The notes under the pieces were generated by a model. The model searched no databases. It worked only from the letters and a program-made list of their open reading frames with translations, and had not been told where the DNA came from. This document shows positions 46,874-58,820 of a stretch of DNA of 64,000 bases, one piece after another. Position 1 is the stretch's first letter; every line of letters begins with the position of its first letter. Both the position numbers and the translations under genes were made by a program. The stretch comes from Asanoa ferruginea (GTDB taxonomy: Bacteria > Actinomycetota > Actinomycetes > Mycobacteriales > Micromonosporaceae). The stretch lies in assembly GCF_003387075.1 (NCBI RefSeq), contig NZ_QUMQ01000001.1, positions 7,006,001 to 7,070,000 on the forward strand, read 5' to 3'.

Positions 46874-48031
46874 GTGGTCGATGCGCTCGAGGCCGTGTGG
46901 CGCACCGAGGCGGCCGGGATGCGGGCCGTGCTGGCCCGGCGCCTGGGCGACCTCGACCGGGCCGAAGAGGCCCTCCAGGACGCCGTGGGCGAGGCGCTGC
47001 GCCGCTGGCCGACCGAGGGAGTGCCGGAGCGGCCGGCGGGCTGGCTGGTCACCACGGCGTGGCGCAAGGCTCTCGACGGGCTGCGCCGGGAGGCGACCGG
47101 CCGGGAGAAGGCGGCCCGGCTCGCCCTGGAGCCGCCCACCGAACCGACCGGCGACGACCGGCTCGCGATGATCTTCACGTGCTGCCATCCGGACCTCAGC
47201 GAGCCGTCGCAGGTCGCGCTCACGCTCTCGGCCGTCAGTGGCCTGACCACCGAGGAGATCGCCGCCGCCCACCTGGTGCCGACCGCGACGATGGCGCAGC
47301 GGCTGGTGCGGGCCAAGCGGACCCTGCGCGGCGCCCGGTTCGACGTGCCCGGCGACCGGCTGCCGGCCGTGCTCGCCACCGTCTACCTGGTCTTCAACCA
47401 GGGCTACGACGCGGTGCGGCGCGACCTCGCCCGCGAGGGCCTCGAACTGGCCTGCCAACTCGCCGCGCTGATCCCGACCTCTGCCGAGGCGGAGGGCCTG
47501 GCCGCGCTGCTCACCCTGCACGAGGCCCGGGCAGCCACCCGCGTCGACGAGGTCGGCCGGTTGGTGCTGCTGGCCGACCAGGACCGGTCCCGCTGGGACC
47601 GCAACATGATCATTTCAGGGGTACGCCGCCTCGGCCGCGCCGCCACCCTCGGCCCGCCGGGTTTCTACCAACTCCAGGCCGCGATCGCGGCGCAGCACGC
47701 GCTCGCACCGTCCTACGCCGCGACCGACTGGGCCGCCGTCCGCGGCCTCTACGACCGGCTGCTGGAACTGCGCCCCTCGCCGGTGGTAGCGCTGAGCCGG
47801 GCCGTGGCGACCGGCTTCGTCGACGGGCCGGAGGCGGCGCTGGCCGAGGCCGACGCGCTGGAGGAGCGGCTGGCCGGCTACCGGATGTGGCACGCGACCC
47901 GCGCCGACCTGCTGTCGAGGCTGGGCCGCACGGCGGAGGCGGCGGACGCGACCCGCCGGGCGTTGGCATTGGCCACCAACGACGCCGAACGGGACCTGCT
48001 CGCCCGCCGCCTCGCCGCACTCACTTCCTGA
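46874..48031 (+). CDS. ECF42-type RNA polymerase sigma factor, module 2
   Basis: A 385-residue ECF42 sigma factor: region 2 (DLDRAEEALQDAVGEALRRW), the linker IFTCCHPDLSEPSQVALTL, region 4 (SGLTTEEIAAAHLVPTATMA) and the long TPR-like C-terminal domain with VLLADQDRSRWDRNMI. GTG 46874 lies 7 nt after TAGCCT (46861-46866), so it has its own leaderless promoter. It converges with two DGPF genes across a 60-bp tandem repeat. Likely target is the TGTCGA-CGTC promoter at 48982-49009. Confidence 0.93.
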   Translation: MVDALEAVWRTEAAGMRAVLARRLGDLDRAEEALQDAVGEALRRWPTEGVPERPAGWLVTTAWRKALDGLRREATGREKAARLALEPPTEPTGDDRLAMIFTCCHPDLSEPSQVALTLSAVSGLTTEEIAAAHLVPTATMAQRLVRAKRTLRGARFDVPGDRLPAVLATVYLVFNQGYDAVRRDLAREGLELACQLAALIPTSAEAEGLAALLTLHEARAATRVDEVGRLVLLADQDRSRWDRNMIISGVRRLGRAATLGPPGFYQLQAAIAAQHALAPSYAATDWAAVRGLYDRLLELRPSPVVALSRAVATGFVDGPEAALAEADALEERLAGYRMWHATRADLLSRLGRTAEAADATRRALALATNDAERDLLARRLAALTS

Positions 48032-48039
48032 ACTGCGCC

Positions 48040-48220
48040 GCCGTACGGCGCGCGCGCCGCTTCACAAGCGCTCCGGCCGCACGCCCGCACGGTGCTCTGG
48101 CCGCACGGCGCTCGCGCCGCTTCACAAAGGCTCCGGCCGCACGCCCGCACGGAGCTCCGCCCGCACGGCGCTCGCCCCGCTTCACAAGCGGTCCGGCCGC
48201 ACGGCGCCCCCGCCGCCGCA
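48040..48220. repeat. Tandem repeat, exact 60-bp period
   Basis: About three copies of a 60-bp unit fill the gap between convergent sigma and DGPF genes. TTCACAA recurs at 48061, 48121 and 48181, followed by TCCGGCCGCACG and preceded by CGCCGC or CCCCGC. Because 60 is a multiple of three, each frame shows a 20-residue repeat, basic on the minus strand. I see no gene signal. Confidence 0.8.
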
Positions 48221-48228
48221 TGGCAGCG

Positions 48229-48582
48229 TCAGTTCAGGATCGGGCGCACCTCCACGGTCTCCCGGAACGGGACGATGCCCGGCCAGGTTGCGGCGATGGC
48301 CACCGCCTCGTCGGCGTCGGCGACCTCCAGCGGCACGATGCCGCCGATGACCTCCTTCAGCTCGACGTAAGGTCCGTCGGTCACCGTGGTGCGGCCCGCA
48401 TCGCCGGCGCTGATCGTGCGGGTCTCCGCGGCCGGGCCGAGCATCGCCCCGCCCGGTAGGACCTTGCCGGTGGGCAGCCAGCGGGCGTACCAGTCGCGGA
48501 TCTGCCCCATCACCTCCCGGGTGGCCTCGTCGTCGCCACTCCAGGCCGCCTCCTCGCCGCTGATCAGCATCAGGAACCGCAT
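48229..48582 (-). CDS. DGPF-domain protein, module 2, second gene
   Basis: A 117-residue YCII-related protein: MRFLMLISGEEAAW, TTVTDGPYVELKEVIGGIVP (DGPF block) and the closing VEVRPILN. ATG 48582 follows AGGGG. It is the second of two adjacent DGPF genes, 8 bp after the first, and both would be transcribed from the ECF42-type promoter at 48982-49009. Its biochemical role is unknown. Confidence 0.88.
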   Translation of the reverse strand: MRFLMLISGEEAAWSGDDEATREVMGQIRDWYARWLPTGKVLPGGAMLGPAAETRTISAGDAGRTTVTDGPYVELKEVIGGIVPLEVADADEAVAIAATWPGIVPFRETVEVRPILN

Positions 48583-48590
48583 GCGTACCC

Positions 48591-48941
48591 CTAGCGCTCG
48601 ATGGTTGGCCGGACCTCGACCTGGTCGCCGAGCGCCTCGATGCCCGGCCAGGTCGCGGCGCAGGCGATCGCGTCGTCGATCGAGTCGGCCTCCAGCAGCA
48701 TGAAACCGCCGACCACGTCCTTGATCTCGATGTAGGGGCCGTCGGTCACCACGGCCTTGCCGTCGGCACCTCGGCTGACCGTCTTGGCCGTCGCGACCGG
48801 CTGCAACTCGGCGCCGCCGTCGACGATCACGCCCGCGGCGCTCCATTTCTCCCACCAGGAGTTGATGGTCTCCATCACCACATCGGCTTCCGGGCCCTCC
48901 CAGTTGGACTCGGGTCCACAAATCATCATCACGTACCGCAT
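48591..48941 (-). CDS. DGPF-domain protein, module 2, first gene
   Basis: A 116-residue YCII-related protein with MRYVMMICGPESNW, VVTDGPYIEIKDVVGGFMLL and VEVRPTIER. ATG 48941 follows GGCGAG; the longer frame to 49010 would cover the promoter. It resembles the next gene at about half the positions, suggesting local duplication. First gene of the DGPF pair that faces the ECF42 gene. Confidence 0.88.
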   Translation of the reverse strand: MRYVMMICGPESNWEGPEADVVMETINSWWEKWSAAGVIVDGGAELQPVATAKTVSRGADGKAVVTDGPYIEIKDVVGGFMLLEADSIDDAIACAATWPGIEALGDQVEVRPTIER

Positions 48942-48981
48942 TCGCTCGCCTTTCTGTCTCTTCCGACCGTGCCATTGGGAT

Positions 48982-49009
48982 GACGAACGGCACCGTGGCG
49001 GGATCGACA
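48982..49009 (-). promoter_or_regulatory. ECF42-type promoter, module 2
   Basis: On the minus strand TGTCGA (49009-49004) and CGTC (48985-48982) are 18 bp apart, matching the motif reported for ECF42 sigma factors (TGTCGA with CGA/TC). It precedes the two DGPF genes and overlaps the region of the divergent Lrp promoter. Confidence 0.7.
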
Positions 49010-49045
49010 TCGCAGTGGAGGGAACCTGCCGGTAGTTTCTTGCGC

Positions 49046-51880: not shown

Positions 51881-52017
51881 AGTCGCAAGGGCAAGTCAGC
51901 GCCGATGGCGCTAGGGGGCCGGTCGGGAAGTTCTAGGTGCGCCTTAAAACTGTTATCCGGCGCTCGCCCCGGTCGTCTCCTGTGCGCCACGATGGGGCGG
52001 CTTCAAGGAGAGGTGCG

Positions 52018-53970
52018 ATGCGCGAAGGGTACGAGCAGGCGTTGGTCGTCGCTGCTCGCGACGGTGATCCGCGGGCGGTCGACCGGCTGGTCGCCGAGTA
52101 TCTGCCGCTGGTCTACAACGTGGTCGGTCGCGCGCTCGACGGGCACGCCGATGTCGACGACGTCGTGCAGGAGACGATGCTGCGCTGTGTGACCGGCCTG
52201 CGTCAGCTGCGCGACCCGGCGAGCTTCCGGGCGTGGTTGGTCGCGATCGCGGTGCGGCAGGTACGCGACCGGCAGGCGGACCCCTACCGGGCGCGGCAGG
52301 CCGGTCACCTCGGCTATCCCGCCGACGACTACAACCTCACCGACCCGGGCGCCGACTTCGCCGAGTTGACGATCCTGAGGCTGGAGCTGTCGGGGCAGCG
52401 GCGCGAGGTGGCCGAGGCGACCCGGTGGCTCGACCCGGACGACCGGGAGCTGCTGTCGCTGTGGTGGCTGGAGTCGTCGGGCGAGCTGACCCGCGATGAG
52501 CTGGCACAGTCGCTGGGGCTGACCAACCAGCATGCCGCCGTACGCGTGCAGCGGATGAAGGAGCGGCTCGACTCCGCCCGGGTGCTGGTGCGGGCCCTGC
52601 ACGCCCGGCCCCGCTGCGAGGAACTCAACGCGGTGGTCGCCGGCTGGTCGGGGCGCCCGGACGCGCTGTGGCGCAAGCGGCTGGCCCGGCACGCGCGCGA
52701 CTGCCCGCACTGCGGGTCGAGTTGGACGCAGCTGGTGGCCGCCGAGCGGCTGCTGGCCGGCGTGGGCCTGGTCGCACCGGTGGCCGGGTTGGCGGCGGCG
52801 ATGGCCGCCGGCGGCACGTCCGCCGGTGGCGTCGTCGGCGCCGCGGCGGGTGCGGGCTGGAACACCGCCACGACCGCGACCGGCGCGGCCGCGCTACCGG
52901 GCGCCACGGGCACGACGGCCACAGCCGCGAGCACGGGCGCCGCCGGCAAGACGGCGTGGCTGACGAAGCTGCTGCACGGGTTCGTGATCAGCAAGCCGAT
53001 CGCGGCCGCCGCGGCCACGGTCGCGGTGGCGACCGCCGCGGTGGTCACGTTCGGGGTCGTGCGCGATGGTGACGCGGTGCCCGCCGCGGCCGTGTTGCCT
53101 CCTGCGGTCTCGGGGGCCCCGTCGCTCGTACCCTCGGCAGATCCGGCACCGACGACGGCGCCGCCGGCGTCCCCCACCGCGACACCGACCCCGAAGAAGA
53201 CGACGAAGAAGCCGGTGGCGCCGTTGCCGCCGACCCGCAAGACGGCGAAGAAGGGTGCCGCGGTGTGGGATTTCCCGGCGGTGAACGCGGGCCTGAAGGC
53301 GGTCGGCGCGTCCTGGTACTACAACTGGGGTTCCAACAACGACCGGATGCCGGCGTCGGGTGTCGAGTTCGTGCCGATGATCTGGGGCACGGCCAACGCG
53401 ACCGACTCGACGATCGCGCAGGCCAAGCGCGAGGGTGACACGCTGCTCGGTTTCAACGAGCCGGACATGGCGGGTCAGGCCAACATGACGCCGGCGAAGG
53501 CGTTGGAGCTGTGGCCGAAGCTCCAGGCGACCGGGATGCGGCTGGGCAGCCCGTCGGTCGCGTTCGGCGCCGCTGACACCGGCAAGTGGCTCGACGAGTT
53601 CATGAAGGGCGCGAAGCAGAAGGGCTACCGGGTCGACTTCATCACCCTGCACTGGTACGGGGGTGACTTCTCGTCGGCGGCCGTGGGGCAGCTCAAGGGC
53701 TACATCCAGCAGGTGTACGCGAAATACAAGCTGCCGATCTGGCTGACCGAGTTCGCGCTGATCCGGTTCGACGGCTCGGGTGCGCACTACCCGACGGACG
53801 CGCAGCAGGTGGCGTTCATCAACGGGGCGACGGACATGCTCCAGGGCCTGTCCTACGTGGAGCGGTATTCCTGGTTCGGGCTGCCGTCGACGTCGGACAG
53901 CCACACCGGCCTCTACAAGGAGAGCGGCCAGTTGACGCCGATGGGCACCGCCTACCGGGCGGCGGGCTGA
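52018..53970 (+). CDS. ECF sigma factor fused to zinc finger, membrane helix and GH128-like glycosidase domain
   Basis: A 650-residue single polypeptide. Residues about 8-85 are sigma region 2 (VDDVVQETMLRCVTGLRQLR), about 130-190 region 4 (LTRDELAQSLGLTNQHAAVR); His225-x3-Cys229-x2-Cys232 forms an anti-sigma-type zinc motif; a membrane helix lies at about 328-346 (AAAAATVAVATAAVVTFGVV); a Pro/Thr/Lys linker follows; residues about 395-650 are an Asl1-like GH128 glycosidase domain with Glu481 in GFNEPDM and Glu578 in WLTEFAL as candidate catalytic pair. ATG 52018 follows AAGGAGAGG. The sigma part faces the cytosol and the glycosidase the outside, so the protein may sense beta-glucan directly. 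Related ECF fusions (ECF52/53-like) are known in actinobacteria. Confidence 0.9.
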   Translation: MREGYEQALVVAARDGDPRAVDRLVAEYLPLVYNVVGRALDGHADVDDVVQETMLRCVTGLRQLRDPASFRAWLVAIAVRQVRDRQADPYRARQAGHLGYPADDYNLTDPGADFAELTILRLELSGQRREVAEATRWLDPDDRELLSLWWLESSGELTRDELAQSLGLTNQHAAVRVQRMKERLDSARVLVRALHARPRCEELNAVVAGWSGRPDALWRKRLARHARDCPHCGSSWTQLVAAERLLAGVGLVAPVAGLAAAMAAGGTSAGGVVGAAAGAGWNTATTATGAAALPGATGTTATAASTGAAGKTAWLTKLLHGFVISKPIAAAAATVAVATAAVVTFGVVRDGDAVPAAAVLPPAVSGAPSLVPSADPAPTTAPPASPTATPTPKKTTKKPVAPLPPTRKTAKKGAAVWDFPAVNAGLKAVGASWYYNWGSNNDRMPASGVEFVPMIWGTANATDSTIAQAKREGDTLLGFNEPDMAGQANMTPAKALELWPKLQATGMRLGSPSVAFGAADTGKWLDEFMKGAKQKGYRVDFITLHWYGGDFSSAAVGQLKGYIQQVYAKYKLPIWLTEFALIRFDGSGAHYPTDAQQVAFINGATDMLQGLSYVERYSWFGLPSTSDSHTGLYKESGQLTPMGTAYRAAG

Positions 53971-54752: not shown

Positions 54753-55889
54753 CTAACCCACGCCTCCGACGGTCAACACCTCCGGGTGCGGGTGGCGCAG
54801 GAACTCGTGGTGCGAGATGTCCCACCCGTAGGCGCCGGTCCGGGCGAAGACGAGCACGTCGCCGACCCGCAGGCGCTCGACATGCTGGCCGCGGGTGAGC
54901 ACGTCACGGGGGGTGCACAGCTCGCCGGTGGCGTCGACCGGAACATCGGAAACCTCCGGACGGGTGTACGGGTGGGGCCAGTGCTCGACCGGCAGCACGG
55001 TGAACGGGTGGCTGTAGCCCCAGGCGGCGGGTAGCCGGAAGTGGTGGGTGCCGCCGCGCAGGACGGCGAACCAGCGGCCGTGGTTGCGTTTGAGGTCGAT
55101 CACTTCGGTGGCGTACCAGCCGGCGTCGGCGGCGATAAAGCGGCCGGGTTCGACGGTGAGGGTCACCCCGTTTGGGGGTTTCCTGATGTGGAGCTGGTCG
55201 AGGTCGAAGTGGGCGTCGCCGGTGTAGTCGATGCCGAAGCCGCCGCCGGCGTTGACGTAGCGCAGCGGGATGCCCAGGCGCTCGGCGTTGGTGACGGACC
55301 AGGCGACGGCGTCGTCGATGAACCGGGCGTGTGCGGCGGCGTCGAGGTTGTTGGAGACGGCGTGCAGGTGGAAGCCGGTGGGGTTCAGCTCGCGGGGCAC
55401 CGTGTCGAGGTCGTCTTCGCCTATCCCGAACGGGGTCGGCGTGCCGGTCATCCGGTGGGAGCCGCTGGGTGTCTCGGCGGTGCGGTTGACCCTCAGCGCG
55501 GCCCGGACGGGGCGGCCGGCGGCCAGGTGGAGGAGGCGGCGGGCCTCGTGGGCGCTCTCCACGTGGATCATCGCTTGGGCGTCGACGGCGGCATCGAGTT
55601 CGGCGTCGGTCTTGGCGGGGCCGGCGAAGGCGATCTCTTTCGCGTTGGCGGCGAGCGCCAGGGCGAGTTCACCCCCTGAGGCGACCTCGAGGCCGTCGGC
55701 GTGCGCGGCGATGGCGCGCAGCAGGTTGGGGTTGCCGTTGGCTTTGACGGCGTAGAGGACTCGCGTTCCTGCCGGGAGGGCGGCGCGGATGGCGGTGATC
55801 CGGTCCACGGCGACGCGCGGGTCGTAGACGTAGGCGCAGACGGGCCGCTGCGCTTGGCTCAGTGCGGCTCTGACCGGCTCAGGGACCAT
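54753..55889 (-). CDS. PLP-dependent decarboxylase of NIS siderophore pathway (SbnH-like)
   Basis: A 378-residue fold-type III decarboxylase of the ornithine/diaminopimelate decarboxylase group. The PLP lysine lies in LYAVKANGNPNLL, the phosphate loop in NAGGGFGIDY, the active-site cysteine in GELCTPRDVL and the closing Tyr region in RTGAYGWDISHHEF. In staphyloferrin B synthesis SbnH decarboxylates a citryl-diaminopropionate intermediate; the two synthetases next door suggest a similar task. It overlaps the upstream synthetase by 11 bp. Confidence 0.88.
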   Translation of the reverse strand: MVPEPVRAALSQAQRPVCAYVYDPRVAVDRITAIRAALPAGTRVLYAVKANGNPNLLRAIAAHADGLEVASGGELALALAANAKEIAFAGPAKTDAELDAAVDAQAMIHVESAHEARRLLHLAAGRPVRAALRVNRTAETPSGSHRMTGTPTPFGIGEDDLDTVPRELNPTGFHLHAVSNNLDAAAHARFIDDAVAWSVTNAERLGIPLRYVNAGGGFGIDYTGDAHFDLDQLHIRKPPNGVTLTVEPGRFIAADAGWYATEVIDLKRNHGRWFAVLRGGTHHFRLPAAWGYSHPFTVLPVEHWPHPYTRPEVSDVPVDATGELCTPRDVLTRGQHVERLRVGDVLVFARTGAYGWDISHHEFLRHPHPEVLTVGGVG

Positions 55890-57441
55890 GGAGCGGATTG
55901 TGCACGGGTACGTAGCGGTCGCCGGCGCCGGCCAGCCGCATCCGGACGAGGGCCTTGTGCGGGACCATCCGGGCGGTTAGGGCGGCGTGGTCAGCCTTCG
56001 CCGCCTCGGCGCTGGCGGGGTCGGCGCGCAGCGGCTCGTAGGCCTCGTCGAGGGCGTCGCGGACGGCCCGCCAGGCGCGGTCCTCGTCGAGGTCGTGTGA
56101 GCGGGTGAGCCGCACGATGAGCTCGCCGAGGTGGGCCTGGAGGGCGGTGTAGCCGAGCTTGGCGCGCATCACGTCGACGTCGTCGGTGGCGACGACGGAG
56201 CCGGGCCACAGCGGTGGCGGGTCGGCCAGCCTGGGCAGGTAGAGGCGCAGGCCGGCGAAGTCGCGGAACGCGATCCGGTGTGGTCGGCCGTCGACGAAGG
56301 TGGGCAGGCAGTTCTGGAGGTGGGCCTCGAGGGCGATGCCGTGCCGGGCGGCGAGGCCGACGACGGGTGGCAGCAGCAGCCGGGCGTAGTCGGCGACGAA
56401 GCGGAGAGCTGTCCCCGCTCCGGGTCCGACCAGGTGGTCGAGGGTGTCGCCGGCGGTGAGGCCGCCGCCGGGGATGGCGGTCTCGCCGGGTGCGAGGTGG
56501 CTGTCGAGGCCGTCGCGCAGGATCGCGGAGCCGTCGCGTCCGGTGCCGGCGGCCAGGGCGGTGCCGGCGGTCTCGGCGAGCAGGATGACGGTGGGGTCGT
56601 CTTCCAGGAGGCGGTGCAGCAGGGCGGAGATGGCCGGCCCGTTGCGGGTGCTGGCGGTGGAGATACTGCGCCGGGTGCTGGTGACCTGGATGTCGAGGGA
56701 CAGTTTGAGGTAGCGGCGGTGGCCGTCGTGATCCGGCGGCAGGAGCAGCGTGCGGACCGCGGCGGTGGGTGCGGCCTCGATGGACCCGTCGACGTCTTTG
56801 AGCGCGCCGGACGCGTAGAGGTCGGCGTAGCGGTGCCGCAGGACGGTGTCGCGCTGCCACTGATGGACCGGGATGCCGCGTCCCGCCTGCGGGTAGAGGT
56901 CGGCGAGGGTCGCGCCGAGGTCGTCGCCGATCAGCAGGTCGGGGTGCGCCCGGACGAACACGATCGTGGTGGTGCCCGCCTCGACGTCGTGGCGCAGCGT
57001 GTCGGCGGTGTCCCAGCCGAGCCGGGTGCGGCCGCACGGGTGCAGGTTGTGCCCGTCGATCGCGACGCGCTCGTATTCCAGGGCGCGGGCGTCGGGATCC
57101 GGGCCGGGGCTGTCCGGTTTCGGGCGGGCGTACGCGAGGGCGAGGTTGACCGTGGCGTTCGTCAGCTCCTCGGCGAGCCCGTGGGCGCCGGGTGGCAGCA
57201 GGTCGGTGAGCGGTTCGTCGCCGAGCTTGTCGATCTCGATGCGGTCGAAGCCGTGGCGGCGGCCGATGCCGGCGAACCGTTCCCGGGCGTCGCCGATGTC
57301 CTCCCGGTAGAGGGCGCCGGCGAGGCGACGGGCGACGGTGGCGGCGGCGCGCGGCAGGGCGGCCCGGAACGGTGCGACGAGGGTGGGTGCGACGCGGTTG
57401 AGGTTCTCGGCGGTGTGCCGGGCGGCGTTGTCGAGGCTCAC
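55879..57441 (-). CDS. IucA/IucC-family NIS siderophore synthetase (second gene)
   Basis: A 520-residue ATP-dependent synthetase joining a carboxylate to an amine or alcohol. Motifs are DGHNLHPCGRTRLG, KLSLDIQVTSTRRSISTAST, the ATP site ALEAHLQNCLPTF and FRDFAGLRLYLP. The usual HPWQ reads HQWQ. GTG 57441 overlaps the first synthetase stop (GTGA). It acts after or before the first synthetase in building a citrate- or 2-oxoglutarate-based siderophore. Length is slightly under the usual 580. Confidence 0.9.
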   Translation of the reverse strand: MSLDNAARHTAENLNRVAPTLVAPFRAALPRAAATVARRLAGALYREDIGDARERFAGIGRRHGFDRIEIDKLGDEPLTDLLPPGAHGLAEELTNATVNLALAYARPKPDSPGPDPDARALEYERVAIDGHNLHPCGRTRLGWDTADTLRHDVEAGTTTIVFVRAHPDLLIGDDLGATLADLYPQAGRGIPVHQWQRDTVLRHRYADLYASGALKDVDGSIEAAPTAAVRTLLLPPDHDGHRRYLKLSLDIQVTSTRRSISTASTRNGPAISALLHRLLEDDPTVILLAETAGTALAAGTGRDGSAILRDGLDSHLAPGETAIPGGGLTAGDTLDHLVGPGAGTALRFVADYARLLLPPVVGLAARHGIALEAHLQNCLPTFVDGRPHRIAFRDFAGLRLYLPRLADPPPLWPGSVVATDDVDVMRAKLGYTALQAHLGELIVRLTRSHDLDEDRAWRAVRDALDEAYEPLRADPASAEAAKADHAALTARMVPHKALVRMRLAGAGDRYVPVHNPLHGP

Positions 57442-58820
57442 TGGCGGTCCGTCAGCGGGTTCGGGATGTAGGCCCAGCGGGGTTCGAGCGGGTCGGCGGC
57501 GAGGCGCATGGTGGTGGTCGCCTTGATCGGGAGGGTGTCGCGTCGGGTGAGCCGGTCGCCGGCGGTGCGGGCGCAGGCGGCCCACAGCTCCGCGGGCGGG
57601 GTGCCGGTCGCGCCGGCCAGGGTGGTGACGAGTTGGCCGAGGACGACCGTGAGGGCGGCGTGCAGGGTGGTCTCCGGCTCGTCGGGGTCGGCGGAGGTGA
57701 GGTCGCCGTGCAGCGGTGGCGGTGCGATGCCCTTGCGGCGCAGCACGGCGGGGTCGACGCGGATGCCGCCGACGTCGCGGTAGTAGAGCCGGTCGGGGCG
57801 TCCACCGGCGAGGGTGACCAGGGTGTTCTGGCCGTGTGCTTCGAGGCCGATGCCGAGGTCGAGGAGTTGGTTTGGTCCGGTGACCAGGACGTTCGTGAGG
57901 TCGGTCAGGAACTCTCGTGGGTCGCCGCCGTAGCCGCTTTTGATCGCTTCGCACGCGAGCGGCGCGCCGTCGGCCGGTGAGGGCGCGGACAGGGCCGCCA
58001 CCGGGATCGCGTGTGCCGGTGGGGCCTGGCGGTGGATGACGGCCAGGCGGCGGTCGGGCTGGCCGTCCTCGGTGCGCACGGCGCCGCCGGCGAGTTCGCG
58101 TAGCACGGTCAGCGGGCTTTGAAGGCTTGCCAGGAACGCGGTGAGGGTCGGGCCGTTGGTGAGGGCGGCCGGGGAGACGGTGCGCACGGCGCTGGTCATC
58201 TGCACGTCGACGGCGGTCTTGAGGTGCAGGCTCGGGTCGTCGAGCGGGGCGAGGGTGCGCAGCGACATCAGTGGCCGGGCGCTGCGGGTGCCGACCGGGC
58301 GCAGCTCCGGGTGCTCGGGCAGCACGCGGGCGGCCTGCCAGGGGTGCAGGTGCAGCAGCGGGGGCAGGCCGGCGCCGGTGGTGTGCCAGCGGTCGGCCGG
58401 CACCTCCACCTGGACGAGGTCGACGGTCGTGTGGTGCTCGGGGGCGTAGGCCAGGACGTCAGCGGTGGTCAGGCCCGTCCGGGTGCGGCAGCCCGGGTGC
58501 AGCGGGTGCCCGTCGACGACGAGTTGCTCCCAGTTGGGCGGCACCGGGCGGGTCAGGGCCGGCGGGCCGCCGTCGGGGGCGGGCTGGTTGGCGCGGGCCA
58601 GGGCGAGGTTGGCGACGCTGTTCTCGAGCTCGGCGGCGAACCGGGCGGAGGTCGCGTACCCGATGATGTGTTCGCGGTTGATGGCGTCGGCGAGCCGGCG
58701 CTGGATCTCGTCGCGCGCGCCGGGCAGTTCCCGCAGGTAGGCGGCATGCAGATCGGGGCGGTGGCGGGCGAGCCATCGCGAGGTGCTCGACGGGTCGGGC
58801 TCCGCCTTCGCGCTGCTCAC
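57438..58820 (-). CDS. IucA/IucC-family NIS siderophore synthetase (first gene)
   Basis: A 460-residue synthetase, short for the family. DGHPLHPGCRTRTGLT, LLHLHPWQAARV, KTAVDVQMTSAVRTVSPAAL, GLEAHGQNTLV and YYRDVGGIRVD are all present, so it looks active; the missing length is at the N-terminus and between motifs. GTG 58820 lies 12 bp from a palindromic iron box, which suggests repression by a DmdR/IdeR regulator when iron is plentiful. First gene of the three-gene siderophore operon; no exporter or uptake gene is adjacent. Confidence 0.9.
   Translation of the reverse strand: MSSAKAEPDPSSTSRWLARHRPDLHAAYLRELPGARDEIQRRLADAINREHIIGYATSARFAAELENSVANLALARANQPAPDGGPPALTRPVPPNWEQLVVDGHPLHPGCRTRTGLTTADVLAYAPEHHTTVDLVQVEVPADRWHTTGAGLPPLLHLHPWQAARVLPEHPELRPVGTRSARPLMSLRTLAPLDDPSLHLKTAVDVQMTSAVRTVSPAALTNGPTLTAFLASLQSPLTVLRELAGGAVRTEDGQPDRRLAVIHRQAPPAHAIPVAALSAPSPADGAPLACEAIKSGYGGDPREFLTDLTNVLVTGPNQLLDLGIGLEAHGQNTLVTLAGGRPDRLYYRDVGGIRVDPAVLRRKGIAPPPLHGDLTSADPDEPETTLHAALTVVLGQLVTTLAGATGTPPAELWAACARTAGDRLTRRDTLPIKATTTMRLAADPLEPRWAYIPNPLTDRQ

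Follow-up and report, generated by a model that had tools for sequence, protein, structure and literature searches.

Within a 64,000-nucleotide stretch of the Asanoa ferruginea genome (NCBI RefSeq assembly GCF_003387075.1, contig NZ_QUMQ01000001.1, positions 7,006,001 to 7,070,000 of the forward strand; hereafter the window), one unbroken open reading frame (ORF) at 52018-53970 on the plus strand encodes, by sequence reading, a protein of 650 amino acids that probably acts as a transmembrane glycan sensor of one component, from which proteolysis would free the sigma factor to induce its own gene and, in relatives, matched proteins. The chain joins an extracytoplasmic function (ECF) sigma factor, a zinc-type anti-sigma (ZAS)-like segment, a predicted transmembrane (TM) helix, a linker and a domain of glycoside hydrolase family 128 (GH128). 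Because its relatives keep the active site and many of them share a promoter, the protein looks like a polysaccharide sensor in one piece, of a kind that is known in part. Computed directly are the order of the domains, the intact catalytic pair, the promoter before many members of the family, the exchange of ectodomains on a common chassis and the presence of ectodomain-matched neighbours in some loci. An original prediction made from the letters of the window had proposed sigma regions 2 and 4, an HxxxCxxC motif, one membrane helix, a Pro/Thr/Lys linker and a glycosidase in a single frame, and the analysis recovered every one of these parts, the helix as a predicted one. The features are as follows:

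51951..51980, plus strand: predicted self-recognised ECF promoter, TGTTATC-N17-GTCTCC, seen as a footprint in six Asanoa-group upstream regions
52005..52010, plus strand: Shine-Dalgarno sequence AAGGAG, read directly, with AGGAG kept in the six-sequence Asanoa-group alignment
52018..53970, plus strand: sigma-ZAS-TM-GH128 fusion gene, 650 amino acids plus stop, ATG start
52018..52308, plus strand: sigma region 2 (residues 1-97), from Pfam Sigma70_r2 at 24-85 and model helices
52357..52602, plus strand: sigma region 4 (residues 114-195), from NCBIfam sigma70-ECF at 20-185 and model helices
52603..52767, plus strand: ZAS-like zinc-type anti-sigma segment (residues 196-250), with H225/C229/C232 within 52690-52713
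52999..53061, plus strand: predicted transmembrane helix (about residues 328-348), from hydropathy, charge bias and model helix 328-343
53074..53241, plus strand: Pro/Thr/Lys-rich linker (residues 353-408), from sequence, with low model confidence over much of it
53242..53967, plus strand: GH128 subgroup I domain (residues 409-650), from PF11790, 6uaq and Foldseek
53458..53460, plus strand: E481 (GFNEPDM), equivalent of AmGH128_I E102
53749..53751, plus strand: E578 (WLTEFAL), equivalent of AmGH128_I E199

A longer alternative start, GTG at 51937, was rejected and the ATG at 52018 preferred because the GTG lies 5' of the predicted promoter. The sigma part is covered by the NCBIfam sigma70-ECF profile over residues 20-185 (E=6e-20) and by Pfam Sigma70_r2 over residues 24-85 (E=3e-13), and no region 4 model was significant in the Pfam scan of the window protein. 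By sequence it matches SigE (1or7, E=1e-6) in the Protein Data Bank (PDB), and Foldseek relates it to AlgU, SigE and SigW. NCBIfam, model helices and Foldseek thus agree on sigma regions 2 and 4 without a region 3, the composition of ECF (group 4) sigma factors. An AlphaFold model built with 38 sequences predicts sigma2 (residues ~2-97) and sigma4 (114-195) well, followed by a helical anti-sigma segment at 201-246, a helix at 328-343 and a barrel from residue 412 onward with pLDDT mostly >90; confidence is low over residues 253-395, with pLDDT <50 for 264-395. Profile search, on which the original prediction had staked its case, detects both a sigma and a glycosidase domain.

The same prediction would have fallen with a frameshift between the domains, and we find the fusion in frame in 38 of 97 deduplicated genes that share the sigma chassis, the window gene included. 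The homologue search took the best 80 of 524 relatives, and 110 loci became 97 upon removal of 13 duplicates; the chassis alignment holds 95 of these 97 rows, leaving out L038 (cut contig) and L105 (broken frame), and all counts refer to related, not independent, sequences (L and G numbers denote our loci and genomes). Hosts of the sigma-GH128 fusion are Asanoa, Micromonospora, Actinoplanes, Dactylosporangium, Spirilliplanes, Umezawaea, Lentzea, Actinosynnema, Cellulomonas, Actinospica, Trebonia, two metagenome-assembled genomes and further Micromonosporaceae genomes. That two genes were fused by a sequencing error has one relative in its favor, since L105 (genome G057) carries its sigma and GH128 halves in different frames, be it by a natural split or a sequencing error of its own; against 38 homologous genes that stay in frame across several actinomycete families, however, the chance of an artefact is practically nil.

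The outer domain has the PF11790 profile, the fold and the two catalytic glutamates of GH128 subgroup I. The profile search proposed by the original prediction matched PF11790 (Glyco_hydro_cc) at residues 430-646 (E=4e-55), and the best PDB match by sequence was AmGH128_I (6uaq, E=3e-81). Comparison with family structures, also proposed there, likewise singled out this GH128 subgroup I endo-beta-1,3-glucanase, whose entries 6uat, 6uaq and 6uas head the Foldseek results, with a TMt of 0.96, a root-mean-square deviation (rmsd) of 1.2-1.3 A and 56% identity for 6uat/6uaq. The PDB titles name the mutants E102A (6uat), E199A (6uas) and E199Q (6ufl), and these two positions align with E481 and E578 of the window protein once the chain index is shifted by a constant 6 against the numbering of the titles. 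We take E102 (E481) to be the catalytic acid/base and E199 (E578) the catalytic nucleophile. True to the expectation that the glutamate pair is retained, E481 and E578 are invariant in all 38 fusions and in 13/13 aligned sigma-less GH128 domains (14 were seen; L116 was left out), N480 and H545 are equally invariant in the 38 fused and the aligned sigma-less domains, and Y547 is kept in 37/38 fused domains. Median dN/dS in the Asanoa group (six sequences, 15 pairs) is 0.11 for sigma2, 0.16 for sigma4, 0.33 for ZAS, 0.46 for linker plus TM and 0.16 for GH128, so that the GH128 half is as constrained as sigma4. A PF11790 search of the window genome (E<=0.001) detects the fused domain and nothing else, and a second match stronger than 1e-40 is absent from 17 and present in 4 of 21 family genomes (a hand tally of genomes with a fetched locus bearing a sigma-GH128 gene, frame-broken L105 counted). 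As a separate observation, 60 bases of the GH128 coding region (window 53545-53604) recur exactly ~110 kb away (L085 1504-1563, genome about C1:7170090), with no GH128 ORF around the copy.

Between sigma factor and membrane, the HxxxCxxC motif formed by H225, C229 and C232 is invariant in 38/38 aligned fusions and kept in at least 90% of the 95 chassis sequences; no Pfam zinc-finger model was significant against the window protein. Cis-inhibition by this zinc segment is plausible. The topology prediction that the original prediction had asked for yields one TM helix with GH128 outside, on the grounds of hydropathy, charge bias and the AlphaFold helix 328-343: the outside placement follows from the K/R bias on the N side of the membrane segment, which the hydropathy scan finds richer in these residues in 33 and poorer in 2 of 38 fusions. 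A second hydrophobic stretch at residues 245-263 comes close in the window protein (hydropathy 2.08 vs 2.10 for the TM segment) and outscores the TM segment in a few homologues. Since it contains proline in 38/38 sequences and has the lower mean hydropathy (1.67 vs 2.15), we assign this stretch to the anti-sigma segment and rejected, if not strictly, an arrangement with two TM helices that would put GH128 inside.

Ectodomains other than GH128 occur on this sigma chassis as well. Among the 97 genes we count 38 with GH128, 41 with CAP (PF00188), 3 with AbfB (PF05270), 10 with an ectodomain of ~170 residues that we call U10 (L020, L046, L052, L063, L070, L073 and L078-L081; no Pfam match at E<=0.01 in L020, the one member scanned) and 5 that are other, cut or broken, numbers that are not prevalences because only the best 80 relatives were taken. 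L057 from Catenulispora bears a different, long ectodomain that has no Pfam match at E<=0.01 either. It is this assortment of GH128, CAP, AbfB and two ectodomains without Pfam match on one chassis that makes us regard the sensor as modular. On the sigma-ZAS tree, a quick tree with many open branches, the ectodomain classes cluster and need 11 changes as compared with the least possible 4, and the GH128 class accounts for 5 changes, 2 of them forced by starred branches. The window genome itself encodes a second chassis member with an AbfB ectodomain (C1:5475387-5476826; L154 7388-8827), embedded among xylan-degrading (hemicellulase) genes: a GH43-CBM6 gene lies on one side and another GH43 gene on the other, and alpha-galactosidase (GH27-type) and GH10 genes are nearby; this paralog is likely an arabinoxylan or arabinan sensor. 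The AbfB member of Actinoplanes siamensis adjoins GH11, GH43 and GH92 genes. Pfam confirmed labels given by eye for the AbfB of L155, the NPCBM and TetR proteins of L140, the sigma-less CAPs, the thaumatins of L009 and L123 and the window neighbours.

Many members of the family also share a promoter, of fuller consensus TGTTATC-N16/17-GTCTCC, and we infer that the sigma factor of the window uses it. Its strict form GTTATC-N15/16-CGTC, a pattern picked after the Asanoa footprint was known, precedes 31/97 chassis genes (15 GH128, 8 U10, 7 CAP, 1 other), compared with 0.57 expected from a locus-wide rate that includes true promoters and with 3/97 on the antisense strand. The best site before the 38 GH128 sensors has no mismatch in 15, one in 15 and two or more in 8 cases; as a yardstick, 18/1500 random 250-base windows hold a site with <=1 mismatch, true promoters included. 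Across 101 family genomes, GTTATC-N16/17-GTCTCC gave 45 matches in 32 genomes vs 6 for the reversed pattern, and 30 match loci that we examined comprise 16 with a sigma-chassis ORF and one with a sigma-less GH128. Exact and GTWAT-relaxed searches of the window genome returned only the promoter of the gene itself, and one-mismatch searches one further site elsewhere. Four genomes of one genus (G047, G067, G084 and G098) share, at a distance from the sensor, another promoter match that is nearly identical among them; in L173, an example from this set, it precedes a hydrophobic protein of 183 residues.

Some sensors have neighbours that match their ectodomain. The GH128 sensor of Trebonia (L009) has beside it a divergently oriented gene of the thaumatin family, which carries the motif without a mismatch on the strand of that gene. 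At the Actinospica locus L015, the end of a thaumatin gene with a one-mismatch motif overlaps the sensor start (ATGA), and a divergent second gene, thaumatin-like by sequence match, also has a one-mismatch motif; queried with the L015 thaumatin, CAP, U10 and AbfB loci gave no match (one query, unequal locus lengths). Thaumatin-like proteins bind and cut beta-1,3-glucan according to plant data (PMC8949454; this and the other papers are cited from excerpts of their text). Sigma-less GH128 genes have a perfect motif at L109 and a two-mismatch motif at L122, and two genomes of one genus (L118, L119) carry directly downstream of the sensor a lipoprotein-like GH128 gene whose domain is 93% identical to that of the sensor (228 and 227 of 245 residues). 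For the CAP class, to which L038, L059 and L061 (earlier "other") were added by tree position, a sigma-less CAP gene stands beside 11/43 sensors in loci of at least 7 kb, and such genes have the exact motif at L042 and L061 and one mismatch at L058 and L075. A conserved gene beside Actinoplanes sensors gave no lead; the match search traced a single family across them, taken to be luciferase-like monooxygenases (4/71 scanned neighbours).

In the mechanism that we propose, the zinc-type anti-sigma segment fused to the N-terminal ECF sigma factor would keep that factor inactive at the membrane, and the linker would bear, on the outside, a GH128 subgroup I domain able to bind and cut beta-1,3-glucan, with fungal wall, callose or a curdlan-like polymer as candidate ligands. 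Once the polymer is engaged, the chain would be cut within or close to the linker and membrane helix, probably by regulated intramembrane proteolysis, and the sigma part would be freed. It would then use promoters of the form TGTTATC-N16/17-GTCTCC to transcribe, before anything else, its own gene; in some relatives, ectodomain-matched genes (thaumatin-like, sigma-less GH128) would be transcribed too. Such a sensor would be modular in that a change of the outer domain would be accompanied by a change of the local target genes. Ligand, proteolysis, enzymatic activity and cis-inhibition of the sensor are steps that we infer. More tentatively, we can picture a self-feeding switch made of a single gene, whose transcription factor doubles as the propeptide of an enzyme, so that each cleavage would release a sigma factor into the cell and, on the outside, an active endo-beta-1,3-glucanase. 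The main target of the sigma factor in Asanoa would be its own gene and, therefore, the only detected GH128 of the genome would be produced through the loop; the sigma-less copies of the outer domain, to which the loop would have given rise in relatives under the same promoter, might serve as extra enzyme or as decoys damping the signal, and the outer domain would predict the local regulon as a general rule of the sigma family. This extension is possible rather than probable.

Several results weigh against the proposed sensor. The strict promoter precedes only 15/38 GH128 sensors, and a one-mismatch best site can be chance; apart from the one-mismatch site mentioned, the promoter searches of the window genome found no target beyond the gene itself, and its AbfB paralog has no promoter motif. 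Matching neighbours are few, with only 3 thaumatin and 1 GH128 proteins among 71 scanned (of 174 called proteins, 103 were dropped, and the GH128 neighbour of L119 was not in the scan). The thaumatin gene downstream of the sensor in L123 has no motif, and none was found upstream of the lipoprotein GH128 genes of L118 and L119; a thaumatin search of the window genome gave no match, as did its control query. Regarding the protein itself, the models do not fix the packing of ZAS on sigma (pTM 0.45 and 0.58), the ten best Foldseek matches have an rmsd of 11.8-20.3 A, and no protease site was identified in the sensor. The GH128 fold alone is no proof of catalysis either, because structures of subgroup VII are titled oligosaccharide-binding protein.

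These titles lend some color to the idea that the GH128 domain is a binding receptor that does not cut, which we nevertheless consider very improbable in view of the invariant glutamates, the invariant or nearly invariant active-site residues around them, the 56% identity to a subgroup I enzyme and strong purifying selection. The domain could instead be mainly a surface-anchored or shed enzyme, with a general envelope or protease signal rather than glucan freeing the sigma factor, so that the fusion would couple enzyme output to stress. Sigma-less GH128 and CAP relatives under the same promoter would suit such an arrangement, as would the scarcity of sensors with glucan-related neighbours and the putative status of glucan as ligand. 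Yet the neighbour type tracks the ectodomain class at several loci (thaumatin/GH128, CAP, AbfB with hemicellulases), which fits ligand-specific sensing better, and we judge coupling to stress unlikely. Somewhat less likely again is a differentiation checkpoint that senses glycans of the own cell or its neighbours during wall or capsule remodelling, not foreign beta-1,3-glucan. It draws on the related ECF52 protein SCO4117, an activator of differentiation and secondary metabolism in Streptomyces coelicolor (PMC5826349). Against it, beta-1,3-glucan is suggested both by the subgroup I type of the GH128 domain and by the thaumatin-like partners.

The surroundings of the gene encode an arginase family protein, a pyridoxal-phosphate (PLP) decarboxylase and two IucA/IucC proteins according to Pfam, and these neighbours suggest no functional link to the sensor. 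The PLP decarboxylase and the two IucA/IucC-FhuF genes occupy 54756-58817 on the minus strand, likely a siderophore locus. Another ECF-type sigma gene with a DUF6596 domain, presumably of group ECF42, lies at 46874-49010 with a YCII-domain gene near it.

Little is understood of the ways in which Gram-positive soil bacteria sense insoluble polysaccharides, and in our assessment few ligands have been assigned to ECF groups with fused ectodomains. Here, a recognizable outer enzyme with a likely substrate and a promoter predicted base by base make ligand, release and regulon directly testable. Were the match between ectodomain and regulon true, the outer domain could assign a signal to many orphan actinomycete ECF sigma factors and the modular chassis could be used as a programmable glycan sensor. 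The proposed mechanism, if true, would also point to a way for actinomycetes of the soil to notice fungi.

The original prediction had remarked that ECF groups with fused C-terminal domains are known, and fusions including predicted glycosyl hydrolases are indeed in print: a review describes some ECF52 and ECF53 proteins as having glycosyl hydrolase and carbohydrate-binding domains that are predicted and not experimentally validated (PMC10766802, citing Huang 2015 and Pinto 2019). Given this mention of sigma-glycosyl hydrolase fusions, the architecture as such is not new, and membrane tethering with activation by proteolysis has already been proposed for ECF52/53 (PMC8999054). A full-text literature search, outside which the ECF classification papers lay, turned up experimental work on such fusions only for SCO4117 and no paper on the function of a GH128-sigma protein. 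What we add, all of it computational, is the promoter, the exchange of ectodomains, the ectodomain-matched genes in some relatives and the finding that this is the only GH128, and the promoter before it the only exact one, detected in the window genome.

The ECF52 protein SCO4117 is similar: its single chain holds sigma factor, zinc finger, TM helix, a linker rich in proline and, outside the cell, a carbohydrate-related domain, and proteolytic release and autoregulation have been proposed for it as well (PMC5826349). It differs in having a carbohydrate-binding module (smart00776; PF08305 in L140) where the window protein has GH128, and its published motif CSGYN-17-SRHA (PMC5826349) differs from GTTATC/GTCTCC, which was not found in the L140 stretch. 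L140 is a Streptomyces locus that stands in for SCO4117, judged SCO4117-like by its NPCBM ectodomain and TetR neighbour, and is not SCO4117 itself. Because the window protein is only 34% identical to it (E=4e-7), we rejected ECF52 proper, of which the architecture alone matches. The window protein probably belongs to ECF53, whose fused anti-sigma-like extension, zinc finger and 1-2 TM helices it resembles (PMC8999054).

In RsgI-type systems the sigma I partner is a separate protein, whereas the sigma factor of the window protein is part of the same chain. RsgI6 carries a GH10 domain, to our knowledge the anti-sigma part of RsgI is not zinc-type, and IutY, another membrane-bound system compared here, is not known to have an enzyme ectodomain. 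The RsgI proteins of Clostridium thermocellum, RsgI6 among them, are alike in placing a substrate-sensing outer part on a membrane anti-sigma factor and differ, besides the separate sigma I, by an autocleaving periplasmic domain; their pathway runs through autocleavage, RseP and AAA+/ClpP steps (PMC12203970), and a title cited in the same paper speaks of glycoside hydrolases as carbohydrate biosensor components in C. thermocellum. IutY (ECF243) of Pseudomonas putida likewise unites sigma and membrane anti-sigma factor in one chain, and its proteolytic release, with processing by Prc and RseP, has been shown, but it answers the siderophore aerobactin in a cell-surface signalling system (PMC8999054). 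The glycosidase half, in turn, compares best with AmGH128_I of Amycolatopsis mediterranei (6uaq), which is alike in sequence, fold and catalytic glutamates and differs in that the solved chain is a GH128 domain alone, of 263 residues.

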